Below are positions 18,950 through 31,153 of a stretch of DNA of 34,390 nucleotides, piece by piece (the stretch's first letter is position 1; every line of letters begins with the position of its first letter). The DNA lies in the IMG/VR virus record IMGVR_UViG_3300037325_000012, positions 1 to 34,390 of that record; one strand, written 5' to 3'. A model generated the notes under the pieces. It searched no databases. It was not told the DNA's origin and saw nothing but the letters and a program-made list of their open reading frames with translations. Source of the DNA: a virus. The position numbers were made by a program, and so were the translations under genes.

Positions 18950-19176
18950 TTCTCTACTCCAAAATGTTTATGAATTTCGTGGGCGCACCAAATAGCAGAT
19001 GCGTATACGTCTTCATCTTCATATTCTCTATTAACTTCATAACAAACCTCTACACACTCTTTAATAATCAACCTAGAATACTTTTCAATAAATATAGCCA
19101 AGCCTTTTTCATGTGAGGCATCATTGGGTATGAATTTTATAGCTTGCTCGGCAAGTTCTTTTATTCGGTTGCTCAT
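18946..19176 (-). CDS. 76-residue protein, paralogue of the N-terminus of the 275-residue protein
   Basis: The segments SNRIKELAEQAIKF, YSRLIIKECVEVCYEVNREY and IWCAHEIHKHFG match the same order of motifs in the 275-residue protein at 17943-18770. The shared element is KLI(V/I)KEC-(I/V)-CYE(I/V) followed by WCA-EI-K-F. Function is unknown. ATGA overlaps join it to both neighbours. Confidence 0.7.
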   Translation of the reverse strand: MSNRIKELAEQAIKFIPNDASHEKGLAIFIEKYSRLIIKECVEVCYEVNREYEDEDVYASAIWCAHEIHKHFGVEK

Positions 19177-19355
19177 TTGTTTTCTCTTGGTGGATTAACA
19201 GGTTTTGTACCGATTGCGTAATGCAGGTGAGGACACGCAAGAACTTCCCATAGGTATGACAAACGCCATGTTTTGGTTTCGTTTAACCAAACCCAAATGT
19301 TTCTAGATGTGTTTTCTAACCACAAGCTAAGTACAAATTGTTGTGGGTGTTTCAT
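19173..19355 (-). CDS. 60-residue protein, paralogue of the N-terminus of the next gene upstream
   Basis: It opens MKHPQQFVLSLWLENTSRNI and continues with KTWRLSYLWEVLACPHLHYA. The upstream 187-residue protein opens MKHPQSELIKQWLEDTDQCI and continues KTWSESYLEEVLVCPNLSYA. This is a clear tandem duplication of one domain. Both start from an ATGA junction. Function is unknown. Confidence 0.7.
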   Translation of the reverse strand: MKHPQQFVLSLWLENTSRNIWVWLNETKTWRLSYLWEVLACPHLHYAIGTKPVNPPRENK

Positions 19356-19915: not shown

Positions 19916-20364
19916 CTTATTCCTTGAATGTGGTTTAAATACCTGAGATTAACGACACGTTGTTGCTTCATGTTTCTGACAGGTACAAGTGCACGATTAA
20001 TGGCATCAAATCGTTTACATAGTGTTTCAAAATCACTTGCTTCATCAATTAACTTTTTTGCCGCAATAGTTTTTTTAAGAGGCATAGGGGCATCTTTTTT
20101 GTTGCCCAGTTTATATACAGCACATTGGCGGTTTTTGTTTGATAGTTTCCAATGAGAGATATAAACCAGTTTTTTCACTTTTAATCGGTTGATAACTATG
20201 GCAATTGTTGTTTCGTGAAAAACACGCTTTGCGGCAATTTCACGCGGTTGTACACCATCACTATCGTCTAAAAATGCTTTGTACACAGCTTGTTCGCCAG
20301 AGTTTTTAGACAGTTTCAAACAATCTAGCGAGTTTATGTTTTGAGTTAATGTCCCGTTGCTCAT
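19912..20364 (-). CDS. Winged-helix-like DNA-binding protein (probable regulator)
   Basis: A 150-residue protein. Residues 23-75 (NSGEQAVYKAFLDDSDGVQP, REIAAKRVFHETTIAIVINR, LKVKKLVYISHW) have the helix-turn-helix and wing order of phage winged-helix regulators. The rest is basic. I chose ATG 20364 because it overlaps the stop of the upstream 50-residue gene as ATGA; a GTG at 20394 would extend it by 10 residues and overlap that gene more. Confidence 0.68.
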   Translation of the reverse strand: MSNGTLTQNINSLDCLKLSKNSGEQAVYKAFLDDSDGVQPREIAAKRVFHETTIAIVINRLKVKKLVYISHWKLSNKNRQCAVYKLGNKKDAPMPLKKTIAAKKLIDEASDFETLCKRFDAINRALVPVRNMKQQRVVNLRYLNHIQGIR

Positions 20365-20513
20365 AACGACCCCAGCGATTTGTAGTAATTCCACTTTGCT
20401 TGGTACTCAGGCAACTCAGAGGGTGGCACAAAGCCAAGCCTTTTGAGTGTGGCAAGCACATCGGTTGCTGCTGCTGGCACGTATGCTTTATGATCTTTCG
20501 GGTAGTTCAACAT
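20361..20513 (-). CDS. 50-residue protein, first gene after an internal gap, strong GGAGAAACC site
   Basis: The frame runs from ATG 20513 to TGA 20361 and reads MLNYPKDHKAYVPAAATDVL ... SELPEYQAKWNYYKSLGSL. The start has AAAGGAGAAACC directly in front, one of the extended ribosome-binding sites shared by several genes of this phage. Its stop forms the ATGA junction that sets the start of the next gene. Function is unknown. Confidence 0.68.
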   Translation of the reverse strand: MLNYPKDHKAYVPAAATDVLATLKRLGFVPPSELPEYQAKWNYYKSLGSL

Positions 20514-20529
20514 GGTTTCTCCTTTGGTT

Positions 20530-21222: not shown

Positions 21223-21332
21223 GCAAAGCAAGCCAGTAGAAGCGTCAGGAACGCCATAGAAGCCACAACGTATGCTTGGGTTGGTATTGTGTTGGCTATG
21301 CGTTTTTCTTTGCTGTATTCGCCTGTAATCAT
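21219..21332 (-). CDS. 37-residue single-TM membrane protein
   Basis: The frame runs from ATG 21332 to TGA 21219: MITGEYSKEKRIANTIPTQA followed by a hydrophobic helix YVVASMAFLTLLLACFA at the very C-terminus. That layout (charged soluble start, tail anchor) suggests insertion in the inner membrane. Both junctions are ATGA overlaps with neighbours, which supports it as a real gene despite its size. Function is unknown. Confidence 0.55.
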   Translation of the reverse strand: MITGEYSKEKRIANTIPTQAYVVASMAFLTLLLACFA

Positions 21333-21730
21333 AATTGCACCTGATAATTTGTACGAACCACTTTATACACGATGGCGTCTTGGGCATCCGTCAAACTAAG
21401 TATTTTTTTCCCACCGTCTTTGTAAATTTTGGTTGAAACCGCATCAGTTAAAAACCAACCAGTTGGTTTACGCGTCAGAGTAACGCGCGTACCGTCGCGA
21501 GAATATTTGTAAGCATTCGGCACTGATGAGCCACTAGTCGCATCAAATATCGCGCCAGGAAAATGCTTTTTTGCGCTGAGTAGTTTGATCAATCGGCTTT
21601 CAGCGTCAGCAACGAGCGCCTCGATTTGATCAAAGCGCACATAAGTATGCGCGGTCGATTTTTGGTTGACTTCGCGCAAAACTGCTTCTATTTTTTGTGC
21701 GTTTGCTTGTGTGATTTTGATTTCTTTCAT
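21329..21730 (-). CDS. 133-residue first gene of the second minus-strand run, unknown function
   Basis: It starts MKEIKITQANAQKIEAVLRE after a strong site (CGGAGAAACACA) and contains THTYVRFDQ-like and RVTLTRKPTGWFLTDAV pieces, with a mixed alpha/beta look. The segment YKYSRDGTRVTLTRKPTGWF could be a small beta sheet. No family recognised. It follows directly behind the operator cluster at 21750-21795, so it is the promoter-proximal gene of this operon. Confidence 0.72.
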   Translation of the reverse strand: MKEIKITQANAQKIEAVLREVNQKSTAHTYVRFDQIEALVADAESRLIKLLSAKKHFPGAIFDATSGSSVPNAYKYSRDGTRVTLTRKPTGWFLTDAVSTKIYKDGGKKILSLTDAQDAIVYKVVRTNYQVQL

Positions 21731-21749
21731 TGTGTTTCTCCGTTAATGT

Positions 21750-24670: not shown

Positions 24671-24855
24671 AGCGCCTCCACGGTTATGCGGTACACAGTA
24701 CCGTTCTTGTCGACAACCTCTAGCAGGCGCTTGCCCACCTGAGAATAAACGTCATACGCGTGTTCTACGTGCTCTACACGGTCAGATGTACGCAAAGCGT
24801 TTAGGCACACGTCAGCAAGCTGGTCAGCGTAAACAAACATGGATTTAGTTTTCAT
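24667..24855 (-). CDS. 62-residue early protein, unknown function
   Basis: It starts MKTKSMFVYADQLADVCLNA and includes VEHAYDVYSQVGKRLLEVVD and TVYRITVEAL, mixed alpha/beta. A perfect GGAGGATATCA site sets ATG 24855. The start overlaps the end of the upstream gene by 11 bases. No family recognised. Confidence 0.65.
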   Translation of the reverse strand: MKTKSMFVYADQLADVCLNALRTSDRVEHVEHAYDVYSQVGKRLLEVVDKNGTVYRITVEAL

Positions 24856-25048
24856 TGATATCCTCCAAATATTCATTACGATTTACACCGAAGTATTGCT
24901 CAACTTCTTCGGGTTCAATAGATTGGATAACTTCCCATCCATCAGGAGTCACGTCTAGCAACGCATCATCAATATGGTCATCGTCTTTTGCGTACACAAC
25001 AGCGCACACTTTTTGCACGCGGGTACTGTAAATTTTGTACATTGGCAT
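24845..25048 (-). CDS. 67-residue early protein, unknown function
   Basis: It reads MPMYKIYSTRVQKVCAVVYA, then an acidic segment (KDDDHIDDALLDVTPDGWEV) and a C-terminal EPEEVEQYFGVNRNEYLEDI. Small acidic alpha/beta protein. ATG 25048 is set by a TAATG overlap with the gene in front. It could be a DNA mimic by charge, but nothing proves it. Confidence 0.65.
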   Translation of the reverse strand: MPMYKIYSTRVQKVCAVVYAKDDDHIDDALLDVTPDGWEVIQSIEPEEVEQYFGVNRNEYLEDINEN

Positions 25049-25221
25049 TATTGGCTCACTAAGGTAGGTTGAACAAATAATTCGAAACACATCTTAGCTT
25101 CTTTAATAAATGCTTTATCAGAGCATTCTGAAAAGTCAATGCACATTTCGTCTTGAACACGCATTGCTGTTTCAGCATCAATGTTAAGAGCTTGCATAAT
25201 ATCTTTTGTGTAGATGTTCAT
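25048..25221 (-). CDS. 57-residue first gene of the recombination operon
   Basis: It reads MNIYTKDIMQALNIDAETAM and onward, helical, with DFSECSDKAFIKEAKMCF in the middle. ATG 25221 is preceded by AAACGGAGAAACCAAA, the fullest copy of the extended ribosome-binding site. An in-frame ATG at 25260 is unlikely because no site is in front. It lies directly behind the operator cluster. Confidence 0.68.
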   Translation of the reverse strand: MNIYTKDIMQALNIDAETAMRVQDEMCIDFSECSDKAFIKEAKMCFELFVQPTLVSQ

Positions 25222-25258
25222 TTTGGTTTCTCCGTTTGAGTCAGCTAATTTGCTAACC

Positions 25259-25309
25259 ATGTAAACATTGTAATACACTATTTACACATTGTGTAAGCAT
25301 TGTTTACAT
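25259..25309 (-). promoter_or_regulatory. Operator cluster of the recombination operon
   Basis: ATGTAAACA (25259-25267) and TGTTTACAT (25301-25309) form a 9-bp perfect inverted repeat. Between them is ACACTATTTACAC (25275-25287), and the perfect dyad TTACACA-T-TGTGTAA (25282-25296) partly overlaps it. The whole set is repeated in simpler form at 21750-21795. It lies between the operon's first gene and the small-RNA promoter on the other strand, so one protein could control both directions. Confidence 0.68.
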
Positions 25310-25324
25310 TTATTTTTATAGGTT

Positions 25325-25353
25325 TTGCACAAGCTATAAATTTTAGCTATAAT
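25325..25353 (+). promoter_or_regulatory. Sigma70-like promoter of small RNA 1
   Basis: TTGCAC (25325-25330), 17 bases, TATAAT (25348-25353). Start of transcription expected near 25359-25360. Five of six -35 bases and all -10 bases match the consensus with ideal spacing, the best promoter I can see in this window. It starts 16 bases after the operator cluster. Confidence 0.75.
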
Positions 25354-25358
25354 TGGTC

Positions 25359-25412
25359 AGGTTTCTCCGACCTGTGGCTCGCAAGTGGTTACTCCTTGCG
25401 GGTCTTTTTTTT
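25359..25412 (+). ncRNA. Candidate small RNA 1: anti-ribosome-binding-site RNA (~54 nt)
   Basis: Predicted from the promoter above and a terminator below. Hairpin 1: AGGT (25359-25362), loop TTCTCCG, ACCT (25370-25373). Hairpin 2 is the terminator. GGTTTCTCCG (25360-25369) is fully complementary to CGGAGAAACC, the extended ribosome-binding sequence at 25225-25234 (minus) and 27683-27692 (plus), and matches 9 bases at 20514-20522, 21734-21742 and 25953-25961. No start codon follows on the opposite strand, so it is not itself a ribosome site. I infer a trans-acting antisense RNA; there is no expression evidence. Confidence 0.6.
25380..25412 (+). terminator. Rho-independent terminator of small RNA 1
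   Basis: CGCAAG (25380-25385), 9-base loop, CTTGCG (25395-25400), then GGTC and eight T (25405-25412). GACC (25369-25372) could extend the stem with GGTC (25401-25404), which would compete with hairpin 1 for the same bases. Confidence 0.85.
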
Positions 25413-25424
25413 ATGGTATATAAT
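25396..25424 (+). promoter_or_regulatory. Sigma70-like promoter of small RNA 2
   Basis: TTGCGG (25396-25401), 17 bases, TATAAT (25419-25424), transcription expected near 25431. The -35 box lies inside the terminator stem of RNA 1, so the two units are packed as tightly as possible. Confidence 0.6.
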
Positions 25425-25430
25425 TAACGT

Positions 25431-25584
25431 ATGCAATGGATTGGTAACCCAGAGCAGAGTTTAAGAGAGCGAACAGAACGCCTAAATTATGGCGGCTTCG
25501 TCAAAAGCTAGTAGTCAGATGCTCTTACATCACTACTTAGTGGCAAACCAAGCCTAAAGCCCCATAATTTAGGTGTTTTTTTTT
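25431..25584 (+). ncRNA. Candidate structured RNA 2 (~150 nt), closed by a long helix and T-run
   Basis: AACGCCTAAATTATGG (25477-25492) pairs with CCATAATTTAGGTGTT (25562-25577): 16 pairs with one G-U, followed by T-run to 25584. Inside, GGCTT (25494-25498) pairs with AAGCC (25550-25554), and an apical hairpin is made by CTAGTAGT (25508-25515) and GATG (25518-25521) with CATC (25528-25531) and ACTAC-T-TAG (25532-25540). The first 46 bases are unpaired. A 26-codon frame from the ATG at 25431 exists but would run through the main helix. The family is unknown to me. Confidence 0.62.
25477..25584 (+). terminator. Long-range rho-independent terminator of RNA 2
   Basis: The outer 16-bp helix of RNA 2 is directly followed by nine T (25576-25584, the first two of which close the stem). 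It differs from a usual terminator because a ~69-base structured domain fills the loop, so termination may depend on folding of that domain. Confidence 0.68.
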
Positions 25585-25612
25585 GCCATTTACCCGTACT
25601 CCGCACGATAGT
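25583..25612 (+). promoter_or_regulatory. Possible rightward promoter for the replication genes
   Basis: TTGCCA (25583-25588), 18 bases, GATAGT (25607-25612). The -10 box is only a 4/6 match. If used, it gives a leader of about 340 bases ahead of the first replication gene. Confidence 0.35.
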
Positions 25613-25617
25613 AAGCA

Positions 25618-25830
25618 CCTAGATGGGTGGCGCGGAATTAAACATTGGCTGGTCTACACCCGACAGCAAGCCAACGCGGACTTAAATGGGTATCGCAACA
25701 AGTTTACAGGGCAAGCGGTGAGACAACCTGTAATCGAATAGAACATTAACTTCGGTAGCAATAGTCTATATCTAGAATTACAAGATACAGATGGTTGAGG
25801 AAAGATAGTCATAGCTATCACCCTTGGGGA
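25618..25830 (+). other. Non-coding, strongly folded region (possible structured leader or RNA 3)
   Basis: Supported helices: TTGGCT (25645-25650) with AGCCAA (25669-25674); TTACAGG (25704-25710) with CCTGTAA (25727-25733); TATCT (25769-25773) with AGATA (25783-25787); GATAG (25804-25808) with CTATC (25815-25819). GGGTG (25625-25629) could close the whole domain with CACCC (25819-25823). No frame longer than about 20 codons on the + strand begins with a good site. It does not match tRNA. Confidence 0.5.
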
Positions 25831-25894
25831 AACTATAAAAAAAATAAATAACAAAAAAGATTAGAAAAAAAACCTTCAAAACAATTTAAAAAAG
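25830..25894. other. A-rich tract, candidate replication origin or bent DNA
   Basis: This stretch is almost only A and T on the + strand, with A-runs of 6-8 (AAAAAAAATAAATAACAAAAAAG and similar, spaced about one helix turn). Phage origins often have such easily melted DNA close to or inside the O-like initiator gene, which begins at 25962. No initiator repeats (iterons) are clear. Confidence 0.35.
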
Positions 25895-25961
25895 TTTACT
25901 TTATCGTGTTTATTTGTGTTGTAATGTGTATAGGGTGATTAACACCTACAAGGGAGAAACC

Positions 25962-26489
25962 ATGAAAGATGTATTTGTAAATATTCGCATGACACAAGAG
26001 CTTAAAGAACAATTAGAGGCTATTGCAGAAAAGGAAGAACGGTCATTATCAAAGCAAATTTTGGTTTATATTAAATCGGGCATTAGTAAAAAAGAACGTA
26101 AACCAAAAGCTGAAATCAACCAAAGCGATTTTAATGAGTTTTGGCAAGCCTACCCTAAAAAGATAAGCAAACCGTTAGCATTAACTGCATATGCAAAAGT
26201 CATGCAACACCATGAAGACATCATGCAAGCCTTAAAGTGGCAACGTGTTTGCGACCAATGGACTAAAGACGGTGTTCAATTTATACCTAACCCTGCAACA
26301 TACCTTAACCAACAGAAATGGCTAGACGAGCAACCATTGCCTACACCTGTATACGAAACCCCATATCAAAAGTCTATGCGTAAACGAGTAGAAGAAATAA
26401 GCCCAAACATTGCACGAAAAGTCGGCACTACATATAACCCTAACTTTGTTGACGAGGTTAAAGATGCCATTACCGACCAAAGCAATTGA
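25962..26489 (+). CDS. Ribbon-helix-helix domain fused to an O-like replication protein
   Basis: A 175-residue protein. Residues 1-48 (VFVNIRMTQELKEQLEAIAE, then ERSLSKQILVYIKSGI) are an Arc-type ribbon-helix-helix DNA-binding domain. Residues 60-130 show FNEFWQAYPKKISKPLALTA and FIPNPATYLNQQKWLDE, the C-terminal signature of phage replication initiators/helicase-loading partners. It begins at ATG 25962 with AGGGAGAAACC in front. Normally the initiator N-terminus is a winged helix, so the RHH is unusual. It overlaps the P-like gene by 26 bases. Confidence 0.78.
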   Translation: MKDVFVNIRMTQELKEQLEAIAEKEERSLSKQILVYIKSGISKKERKPKAEINQSDFNEFWQAYPKKISKPLALTAYAKVMQHHEDIMQALKWQRVCDQWTKDGVQFIPNPATYLNQQKWLDEQPLPTPVYETPYQKSMRKRVEEISPNIARKVGTTYNPNFVDEVKDAITDQSN

Positions 26490-26928
26490 TAGATTATTCG
26501 AGCGTTTAATGCTGACATACGGCAGCGAATGGACAATGAAGTTTGAGGGCATAGACATGAATGATGTTAAATCAATGTGGGCGCACGAACTTTCATCATT
26601 TGCTGACAACCTAAAAGTTCTTGGCTGGGCATTGGAAAACTTGCCTGCAAAATGCCCTAATGTTATTGAGTTTAAACAACTATGCCGACAAGCACCGAAG
26701 CCTGATACAAAGATGCTAGACGTTGACAAAGCGCCCACACACATCGTAGATGCACAAATTGCGGAGATGGTGCGCGTGGTAACAGAGCAAACAAACCCAA
26801 ATGACAGCAAGCGTGATTACAAAGCCTGGGCGAAAAAGTTAAAGTCTCGGCACGATGCGGGCGAGAAGCTAGAAATATTTCAAGTACGCTCGTATAAGGT
26901 TGCCTTGGGCATAACGGAGAAATACTAA
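26464..26928 (+). CDS. Lambda P-like replicative helicase loader
   Basis: A 154-residue protein. AIDRLFERLMLTYGSEWTMK, then MWAHELSSFADNLKVLGWAL, ENLPAKCPNVIEFKQLCRQA are the order of P-like proteins, which bring host DnaB helicase to the origin. It ends with a basic helix (AWAKKLKSRHDAGEKLEIFQ). The true start is ATG 26464. This and the protein in front suggest lambda-type theta replication with host polymerases, since no phage polymerase is present. Confidence 0.82.
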   Translation: MPLPTKAIDRLFERLMLTYGSEWTMKFEGIDMNDVKSMWAHELSSFADNLKVLGWALENLPAKCPNVIEFKQLCRQAPKPDTKMLDVDKAPTHIVDAQIAEMVRVVTEQTNPNDSKRDYKAWAKKLKSRHDAGEKLEIFQVRSYKVALGITEKY

Positions 26929-27353
26929 TGAATACAAACGAAATTTACAAATTGATAGATGAACACTTAAAAAAACTAGATGAGCCAAAAAATGTCAGTA
27001 TAGCTTTAGTTGCGGATAAAGAATGGGAAGTAAGAGTTATTGGTAAAAGATATTCAATTTGGATTGGAAATTATACAAATTATGATGAAACAATAAAAAT
27101 TGCAGAAATCGTAAGTCAATATTTAACAAGCAAAAAAATCAACAACACAAACGAAAAACAAGTAAACGGCACACATTACAAATCCAAGATTCAATGTTGG
27201 GATTACATAATTGCAAACAACATTGGCTACTTAGAGGGTAACGTGATCAAGTACGTTACACGGCACAAAAGCAAGGGCGGGCGTGCGGACATACTTAAGG
27301 CGATTCACTATCTTGAGAAAATACTTGAAGTTCAGTATAAGGGTGAATCATGA
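26928..27353 (+). CDS. DUF3310 protein with an extra AT-rich N-terminal domain
   Basis: A 141-residue protein. Residues 80-138 (KQVNGTHYKSKIQCWDYIIA, GNVIKYVTRHKSKGGRADIL, KAIHYLEKIL) are a DUF3310 domain, sometimes linked with nucleotide metabolism. Residues 1-75 (LIDEHLKKLDEPKNVSIALV, EVRVIGKRYSIWIGNYTNYD) are unrelated and encoded in clearly more AT-rich DNA. The two parts were probably joined by recombination. ATG 26928 overlaps the previous TAA, with CGGAGAAA in front. Confidence 0.75.
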   Translation: MNTNEIYKLIDEHLKKLDEPKNVSIALVADKEWEVRVIGKRYSIWIGNYTNYDETIKIAEIVSQYLTSKKINNTNEKQVNGTHYKSKIQCWDYIIANNIGYLEGNVIKYVTRHKSKGGRADILKAIHYLEKILEVQYKGES

Positions 27354-27531: not shown

Positions 27532-27699
27532 ATGATATTTCAGATAACCAAAGAGCATATAGAGCAGGAAAGTCTTGCGTACACAAGCGTCGGTTCTTGG
27601 TGTTACATATCACCTCAATCAAAGGTATGGCACATAAGACCCACAAGAGATGAAGTACAACAAATAGTATTTTATTTACAAACGGAGAAACCAAAATGA
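27532..27699 (+). CDS. 55-residue protein, unknown function
   Basis: The frame begins at ATG 27532 and reads MIFQITKEHIEQESLAYTSV ... SWCYISPQSKVWHIRPTRDE. Its end includes the extended ribosome site of the next gene and closes with an ATGA overlap. That overlap is the best evidence it is real. Confidence 0.55.
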   Translation: MIFQITKEHIEQESLAYTSVGSWCYISPQSKVWHIRPTRDEVQQIVFYLQTEKPK

Positions 27700-27842
27700 A
27701 AAAATTATTAGCAATCATTCTTATGACATTTTCAGTAAGTGCTTTTGCTTACTGCACAACTCAGGTTATATTTGCGGGGGGTAAAACTATTGTTTGCTCA
27801 ACTTGTTGTACAGGAAACGTTTGCACAACAACCTGCACATAG
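27696..27842 (+). CDS. Small exported cysteine-rich peptide
   Basis: The 48-residue product has a clear signal peptide (MKKLLAIILMTFSVSAFA, probable cut after AFA) and a mature part of about 30 residues with six cysteines (YC..., VCSTCC, NVCTTTC). It should be secreted to the periplasm or outside, where disulfides can form. CGGAGAAACC lies directly before the ATG at 27696. Similar short peptides occur in other phage genomes without known function; possible roles are superinfection exclusion or envelope effects, which is speculation. Confidence 0.68.
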   Translation: MKKLLAIILMTFSVSAFAYCTTQVIFAGGKTIVCSTCCTGNVCTTTCT

Positions 27843-29949: not shown

Positions 29950-30462
29950 ATGAAGCAAGAAATAGTACATAAGTCCATTGCGGGCTTAATTCCTTATGCA
30001 AACAACGCCAGGACACACTCTGACGAACAAATAGCGCAGATAGCAGCCAGCATAAAAGAGTTTGGGTTTACTAATCCAATACTAATAGACGGCACAAACG
30101 GAATCATTGCAGGGCATGGCAGATTGATGGCAGCACGCAAGCTAAGTCTTGACACCGTACCCTGCATAGAGCTATCACACCTAAGCGACAAACAAAGAAA
30201 AGCATACATTCTTGCGGACAACCGCTTGGCTATGAATAGTGGCTGGGATACACAATTGTTAACGCTAGAGTTAAAAGGGCTAGATGACGAAGGCTTTGAC
30301 TTAGAGATGCTAGGTTTTGATGCAGATGAGTTAAGAGAATTAATGTCAGATGTTAATTTTGACCCTGCTACAGAAGATGAACAAGGAAAATTAGATGAGT
30401 TAGACCCAAAATGGATAATTTGCCCTAAATGTGGAAGCGAATTTGATGCAAGAAAAAATTAA
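29950..30462 (+). CDS. ParB-like protein with C-terminal CxxC tail, upstream of Mom
   Basis: A 170-residue protein. PYANNARTHSDEQIAQIAAS, then FGFTNPILIDGTNGIIAGHG, RLMAARKL and YILADNRLAMNSGWD are the ParB/sulfiredoxin-fold nuclease domain, usually followed by a methylase in phages. Here the methylase is missing and the protein ends in DPKWIICPKCGSEFDARKN, half of a zinc ribbon. Its end overlaps the Mom gene by 17 bases. In phage Mu, the zinc protein Com opens the mom mRNA for translation from the same position, so a link is possible (inference). Confidence 0.8.
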   Translation: MKQEIVHKSIAGLIPYANNARTHSDEQIAQIAASIKEFGFTNPILIDGTNGIIAGHGRLMAARKLSLDTVPCIELSHLSDKQRKAYILADNRLAMNSGWDTQLLTLELKGLDDEGFDLEMLGFDADELRELMSDVNFDPATEDEQGKLDELDPKWIICPKCGSEFDARKN

Positions 30463-31153
30463 CTTACAAATTGATTGGGCTAGTCATGAATCAGCAAAGT
30501 TTGCTTGTTTAAATTGGCATTACAGTAAATGCTTGCCTGTTGGCAAATTAGTTAAAGTAGGCGTATGGGAAGATAAAAAATTTATAGGTGTAGTTTTGTT
30601 TTCTCGCGGTGCAAGTCCTACTTTAGGAAATGCTTATAATTTAAATCAAACTGAATGTTGTGAGCTTACAAGAGTTGCTTTAAATAAACATTTAACACCT
30701 GTATCTAGAATACTATCAATAGCTATTAAGTTTTTAAAAAATAACAACCCTAATTTAAAATTAATTGTTAGTTTTGCAGACGCTAATCAAAATCATTATG
30801 GAGGAATTTATCAAGCTAATAACTGGTTATATGCAGGAAAATCTAATCCTAAAAAAGATTACATCGGGCCTGATGGCAAAAAATACTTATCCAGACAAAT
30901 TGCAGAATCAGGTTATGTCATGCAATTTGGGAAAAAAACAAAAGCATACAAACCGAGTGAATGTTTAGCAATTCCTGTTAAAGGTAAGCACAGATATTTA
31001 ATGCCTTTAAATAACAAAATAAAACAGCATATAATGCCACTAAGTAAGCCATACCCTAAGCGTGTCAAAAAGCAGGACTCTGAGAACCCCTCAGAACTGG
31101 GCGGGGCAGTACCGACCGACACGCTCCATTTATTGCGAGAAACTAATGGCTAA
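30446..31153 (+). CDS. mom: Mom-like DNA adenine modification protein (anti-restriction)
   Basis: A 235-residue GNAT-like protein. LNWHYSKCLPVGKLVKVGVW with His25-Tyr26, GVVLFSRGASPTLG, ECCELTRVALN with Arg76, and IVSFADANQNHYGGIYQANN with Asp112 and Tyr122 are the order of conserved residues in the phage Mu Mom family, which converts adenine to an acetamido-adenine form that blocks many restriction enzymes. I use ATG 30446; a GTG at 30431 is also in frame. The gene is AT-rich (one 60-base line I counted has about 30 percent G+C against about 42 in terminase), a sign of transfer. Confidence 0.85.
   Translation: MQEKINLQIDWASHESAKFACLNWHYSKCLPVGKLVKVGVWEDKKFIGVVLFSRGASPTLGNAYNLNQTECCELTRVALNKHLTPVSRILSIAIKFLKNNNPNLKLIVSFADANQNHYGGIYQANNWLYAGKSNPKKDYIGPDGKKYLSRQIAESGYVMQFGKKTKAYKPSECLAIPVKGKHRYLMPLNNKIKQHIMPLSKPYPKRVKKQDSENPSELGGAVPTDTLHLLRETNG

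Follow-up and report, generated by a model that had tools for sequence, protein, structure and literature searches.

The small transcription unit at 25325-25412 of the window (the whole 34,390-nucleotide stretch analysed, IMG/VR virus record IMGVR_UViG_3300037325_000012) probably encodes a trans-acting, multi-target antisense RNA that would block the start of translation across an early regulon of the phage itself. An earlier note, made from the sequence alone, had proposed such an arrangement of one RNA and many ribosome-binding sites (RBSs), and comparison bore it out: the unit was conserved, its seed was invariant, and the extended complement of the seed was enriched at early-gene starts. 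The unit was interpreted as a candidate small RNA (sRNA) gene carried by a group of environmental phages, possessing its own promoter and intrinsic terminator and predicted to give a short non-coding transcript. Its elements were:

25325-25353 (+): small-RNA promoter, sigma-70-like, TTGCAC (25325-25330), 17-nt spacer, TATAAT (25348-25353)
25359-25412 (+): putative small non-coding RNA, ~54 nt, predicted start at 25359/25360 and end at the T8 tract
25360-25369 (+): seed GGUUUCUCCG at the 5' end of the small RNA, exact complement of CGGAGAAACC
25376-25404 (+): terminator hairpin of 10 bp, 25376-25385 with 25395-25404, then T8 at 25405-25412

The promoter, the ~54-nt unit and the hairpin with its run of eight T all lay where the earlier note had placed them. 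Positions 25360-25369 are occupied by GGTTTCTCCG, and the predicted start of the RNA coincides with the first base of GGUUUCUCC. It had also been claimed that a 5' hairpin exposes TTCTCCG. The complementarity stood, but the pairing bases are more aptly called a 5'-terminal seed than a loop, and the hairpin enclosing them is only partly conserved. Five seed bases (UCUCC) were predicted to be unpaired, while the GGUU portion was mostly paired in a short hairpin. Rfam covariance models, applied at the gathering score, produced no family match anywhere in the window.

Sites complementary to the seed were found at the starts of six early genes:

25225-25234 (-): target 1, CGGAGAAACC, RBS of the first gene (25048-25221, 57 aa) of the leftward (recombination) operon
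27683-27692 (+): target 2, CGGAGAAACC, RBS of a 48-aa exported Cys-rich peptide (27696-27842)
25953-25961 (+): target 3, GGAGAAACC, RBS of an RHH-domain/replication-initiation-like protein (25962-26489)
20514-20522 (-): target 4, GGAGAAACC, RBS of a 50-aa early protein (20361-20513)
21734-21742 (-): target 5, CGGAGAAAC, RBS of a 133-aa early protein (21329-21730)
26915-26922 (+): target 6, CGGAGAAA, RBS of a DUF3310 gene (26928-27353)

The two full-length CGGAGAAACC sites, before the recombination-operon leader and the Cys-rich peptide, had been reported correctly, as had the shorter sites before the initiator and two minus-strand genes; the DUF3310 site (ACGGAGAAAUACUAAUG, about 26914-26930, +) was absent from that earlier list and is added here. 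Near-matches to CGGAGAAACC occurred at 25952-25961 (+), 20514-20523 (-) and 21733-21742 (-). When up to one mismatch was allowed, the window held eight CGGAGAAACC sites against 0.98 expected, a number that shuffles never reached; one was the copy inside the RNA and five were early-gene RBSs. Near-matches at 1787 and 18553 were not taken as targets. None of the structural genes in the window carried the motif in its RBS.

Comparison with shuffled RNAs was likewise favourable to the proposed pairing. The RNA paired over at least 8 contiguous nt with 7 of the 59 gene starts in the window, against a mean of 0.64 for dinucleotide-shuffled RNAs, and the observed count was matched in about 0.1-0.2% of trials. 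One of the seven starts, that of the gene at 19173-19355, was rejected as a target, its 8-bp match using the terminator arm and not the seed. Predicted duplex energies for the six seed targets ranged from -18.6 to -14.1 kcal/mol, against a median of -8.1 over all starts, and all six ranked among the top eight of the 59.

The unit, with promoter and terminator, was present in ten further IMG/VR contigs. A promoter pattern and a terminator pattern, each searched independently through 2.9 million viral contigs, retrieved the identical ten. The terminator pattern was absent from all 84,980 GTDB genomes scanned, and the 1.5-kb region at 24700-26200 had no blastn match among 50,697 annotated phage records. 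Promoter and terminator were almost invariant in the alignment of the eleven RNAs: the promoter spacer (AAGCTATAAATTTTAGC) was near-identical across all 11 genomes, and every pair of the terminator stem was retained in every genome. The first nine bases (GGUUUCUCC; GGTTTCTCC) were invariant (11/11), with variable bases on both sides. The base following the seed was G in seven RNAs (group 1, comprising seven sRNA-bearing genomes); the four RNAs of group 2 (G002, G005, G006 and G010) had T in three cases and A in the fourth.

The first hairpin was less constant. Its pairs were present in 87% of alignment cells, mostly through G-U changes; it was weak and partly broken in group 2, and showed no statistically supported covariation among the aligned sRNAs. 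The suggestion that GACC (25369-25372) could alternatively pair with GGTC at the base of the terminator, such that target binding might remodel the RNA, was not upheld, three of the four pairs being lost without compensation in 3-4 of 10 distinct sequences. A small reading frame within the RNA was also discarded; AAG-TGG in the window reads AAG-TGA in the other ten, and the frame is not conserved. A scan for a wider family (TATAAT-N4-8-GGTTTCTCC-...-T6) gave new matches that were without the terminator hairpin, resembled coding DNA and belonged to unrelated contigs, and most exact GGTTTCTCCGACCTG matches in viral contigs resembled chance coding matches; neither set was retained. Close relatives without the unit were short contig fragments that seemingly ended before its position, and therefore provided no clean natural knock-out among near relatives. 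The exonuclease had only relatives of at most 44% identity in GTDB genomes (Sutterella, Bartonella, Psychrobacter, Acinetobacter and others), and so no host was assigned.

The complement of the seed, GGAGAAA(C)(C), served as the RBS of several early genes in each group-1 genome. Across this group, (N)GGAGAAAC preceded about ten unrelated early gene families. These were the genes for Sak, the initiator and the Cys-rich exported peptide, those encoding proteins of 133, 67, 50 and 37 aa, and the differing genes that open the leftward operon; before the DUF3310 gene the sequence was CGGAGAAAU. Upstream of the 50-aa gene, GGAGAAACC was invariant in 9/9 close orthologues, although its spacing to the ATG was either 0 or 3 nt and the base ahead of it was variable. 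The 67-aa gene kept (C/A)GGAGAAACC despite four dissimilar upstream settings; two genomes, the window and G008, have a new gene ahead of the 67-aa gene, and there it is this new gene that the motif precedes. The complement reads as a regulon tag on unrelated early genes. Nearly every phage (window, G001-G010) had a different gene at the head of its leftward operon, the 5' UTR and RBS of that gene being largely kept within group 1; this position appears to be a slot for the swapping of early genes.

Enrichment of the extended complement was evaluated at GGAG-type RBSs. GGAGAAAC was found at 21 of 68 such sites in group 1 but at 5 of 159 in seed-less relatives (Fisher p = 1.6e-8), CGGAGAAAC at 12/68 against 0/159 (p = 2.5e-7) and GGAGAAACC at 13/68 against 0/159 (p = 6.5e-8), the entries being partly related and so not fully independent. 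The comparison relatives had exonucleases 51-72% identical, and the contigs examined contained no GGTTTCTCC. Within the window by itself the three motifs occupied 5/20, 3/20 and 4/20 sites respectively. These values agree with the earlier contention that the flanks beyond the GGAG core matter, and point to a conserved, accessible seed that is complementary, beyond chance, to initiation regions encoded elsewhere.

The seed and its targets changed together to a limited extent. In group 1, the G following the invariant bases lay opposite a target C at most sites, while in three of the four group-2 genomes (G005, G006 and G010) a seed U lay opposite a target A. G002, with a seed A opposite a target A, broke this pattern. 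Three of the four group-2 leader sites read GGAGAUAC against the unchanged UUU, leaving a mismatch in the duplex (an unpaired U), and one further group-2 gene also read GGAGAUAC. Hence, the expectation that loop and targets would vary jointly across relatives held for three of four group-2 phages and failed for G002 and for the GGAGAUAC leaders; covariation was only partial, amounting to one change between two clades. GGAGAAAC occurred at only 1 of 32 group-2 sites and leader pairings there were predicted at about -10 to -14 kcal/mol; the group-2 regulon appears weak and its target set thin.

Two further elements flank the unit:

25267-25295 (-): candidate leftward promoter, TACACA-17-TACAAT, overlapped by repeated TGTAAACA/TTTACACA operator-like half-sites
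25419-25427 (+): TATAATTAA (TATAATTA kept in 11/11 genomes), after the terminator; candidate second -10 for the rightward operon

Direct and inverted TGTAAACA/TTTACACA repeats are clustered at 25256-25310, between the divergent promoters, and similar TTTACA sequences occur just upstream of several sRNA-target genes; both probably serve as operators for one shared transcriptional regulator. Another divergent promoter region, at 3900-4100 of contig L100 (G011), had similar TTAGCTAA/TTTACA operator-like repeats; no small RNA was seen in this region and its RBS was without GGAGAAAC. TATAATTA marks a candidate second promoter that overlaps the terminator, but its distance to any -35-like sequence in the terminator arm varied between 14 and 17 nt. 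Between the sRNA and the initiator, a second, very stable structured RNA with a long terminator hairpin was predicted at 25430-25590 (+) (-53 kcal/mol, z = -5.05). G003 and G008 share its opening sequence; what G001, G004 and G007 carry at that place is also structured and terminator-ended but unrelated to it, the arms apparently being interleaved in G004 and G007. It is possible that this second RNA is a leader attenuator or antiterminator. Elsewhere in the window, a Mom-like DNA modification protein (30446-31153, +; PHROG 1384, E = 5e-59) adjoins a ParB-like nuclease (29950-30462) and the terminase genes.

Complementarity of this kind might be a by-product of Shine-Dalgarno (SD) use, given that an RNA containing CUCC pairs with any strong RBS and that the phage favours A-rich spacers; indeed, the GGAG core is common to all strong sites and many genes have an A-rich spacer. 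However, it was the flanks rather than the core that were enriched, CGGAGAAAC and GGAGAAACC being wholly absent from the sites of seed-less relatives. The C before GGAG lies outside the SD consensus, yet it was the commonest base in that position at group-1 target sites (12/21), and GGAGAAAC dominated the GGAG-type start 8-mers of the window, with 5 sites where each of the others had a single one. An origin in SD use was considered improbable for these reasons. Standing slightly higher, though still unlikely, is the idea that (C)GGAGAAACC is the site of a RegA-like translational repressor or a DNA operator, the copy that opens the sRNA being a reversed operator that controls its promoter. Relative to that promoter the copy does occupy exactly positions +1 to +10, and the TTTACA-type sequences upstream of several target genes are operator-like. 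Against this, the motif stood at SD distance from the ATG in every target gene, operon-internal genes included, which fits a role at the RNA level, and the copy in the sRNA is antisense and lies within a terminated non-coding unit whose terminator is conserved.

The position of the terminator, directly upstream of the rightward genes, would also suit a cis-acting leader or attenuator of the rightward operon that is read through under some condition, and in several genomes another terminator-ended structured RNA comes next. But the -10-like TATAATTA follows the terminator as a separate element in all 11 genomes, the alternative pairing involving the terminator is not conserved, and complementary RBSs elsewhere would be left unexplained; such a leader was judged less probable again than a by-product of SD use. 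Least likely of all was a host-directed anti-SD mimic, repressing host mRNAs or sponging a host sRNA, for which the matches in the phage would be incidental. The phage trans-acting sRNAs PreS and VpdS do act on host mRNAs (PMC12197685), but phage RBSs should avoid a host-shutoff RNA rather than match it, and by predicted duplex energy the strongest matches were to phage early genes.

Antisense control of the phage's own early genes was preferred, and would operate as follows. The sRNA would be transcribed from its own promoter and terminated at the intrinsic terminator; its 5' seed, GGUUUCUCC(G), would pair with the non-canonical extended RBS, (C)GGAGAAAC(C). The regulon would extend over both divergent operons, taking in the leftward first gene, the initiator, the DUF3310 gene, the Cys-rich peptide and several small early proteins, as well as the gene for the Sak annealing protein in some phages. 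Pairing would cover the SD sequence, block 30S binding and lower translation across the early set simultaneously, so that one RNA probably turns down about half a dozen early genes together, while structural genes, without the motif, would continue to be translated. The production of the sRNA, the repression and its time of action are what we infer. Shut-off of the early programme is the likeliest role, because structural genes would escape and the subset of proteins scanned included no recognisable integrase or repressor; the phage may nonetheless be capable of lysogeny. A fuller proposal, plausible but held with rather less than even confidence, is that one sRNA and a bespoke extended RBS constitute a private translational regulon, in which the RBS is a portable tag through which any newly acquired first gene would join, and which would silence the early genes once the late programme begins.

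Among known systems, the c4 RNA of P1/P7 and the sar RNA of P22 are phage antisense RNAs that lie over the RBS region of a phage mRNA and block its translation, c4 using sequences in RNA loops (PMC12197685). The candidate sRNA would be alike in its action over phage RBS regions. It differs in being an independent, terminator-ended unit of ~54 nt, and in that c4 and sar are described for one target (ant), while here one extended site is shared by about six or more unrelated genes; dedication to a single ant mRNA does not fit sites that stand before unrelated early genes of about ten families in the group. VpdS of vibriophage VP882 is a trans-acting phage sRNA of ~50 nt, reported to affect the levels of phage and host mRNAs, and both it and PreS have been studied mainly through Hfq and host targets (PMC12197685). 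The resemblance to VpdS is that of a phage-encoded trans-acting sRNA of similar length; VpdS belongs to an Hfq-bound, quorum-sensing-responsive network, and a shared extended RBS regulon is not described for it (PMC12197685). For PreS, of phage lambda, the described target is the host gene dnaN, as opposed to a phage regulon. Bacterial multi-target anti-SD sRNAs, such as the Neisseria sibling sRNAs and other sRNAs with C/U-rich loops, pair a C/U-rich seed with the SD region of many mRNAs. These are chromosomal and control metabolic and other host genes, whereas here the regulator and the matched extended RBS are both phage-borne. Phage trans-acting sRNAs and anti-SD sRNAs are known separately; the new element would be an intraphage regulon whose members share an extended RBS, distinguished by the matched pair of one phage RNA and a bespoke site common to many unrelated genes.

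Phage antisense RNAs in the literature considered mostly address one phage mRNA each, and the trans-acting ones mainly host mRNAs. Here, one RNA of ~54 nt seems to coordinate many of the phage's own early genes post-transcriptionally, with the shared extended RBS as an address tag. If true, early shut-off or the control of copy number could be achieved through a small RNA, and a simple sequence rule would become available for recognising comparable regulons in other uncultured phages: a terminator-ended RNA complementary to the phage's own over-represented RBS.
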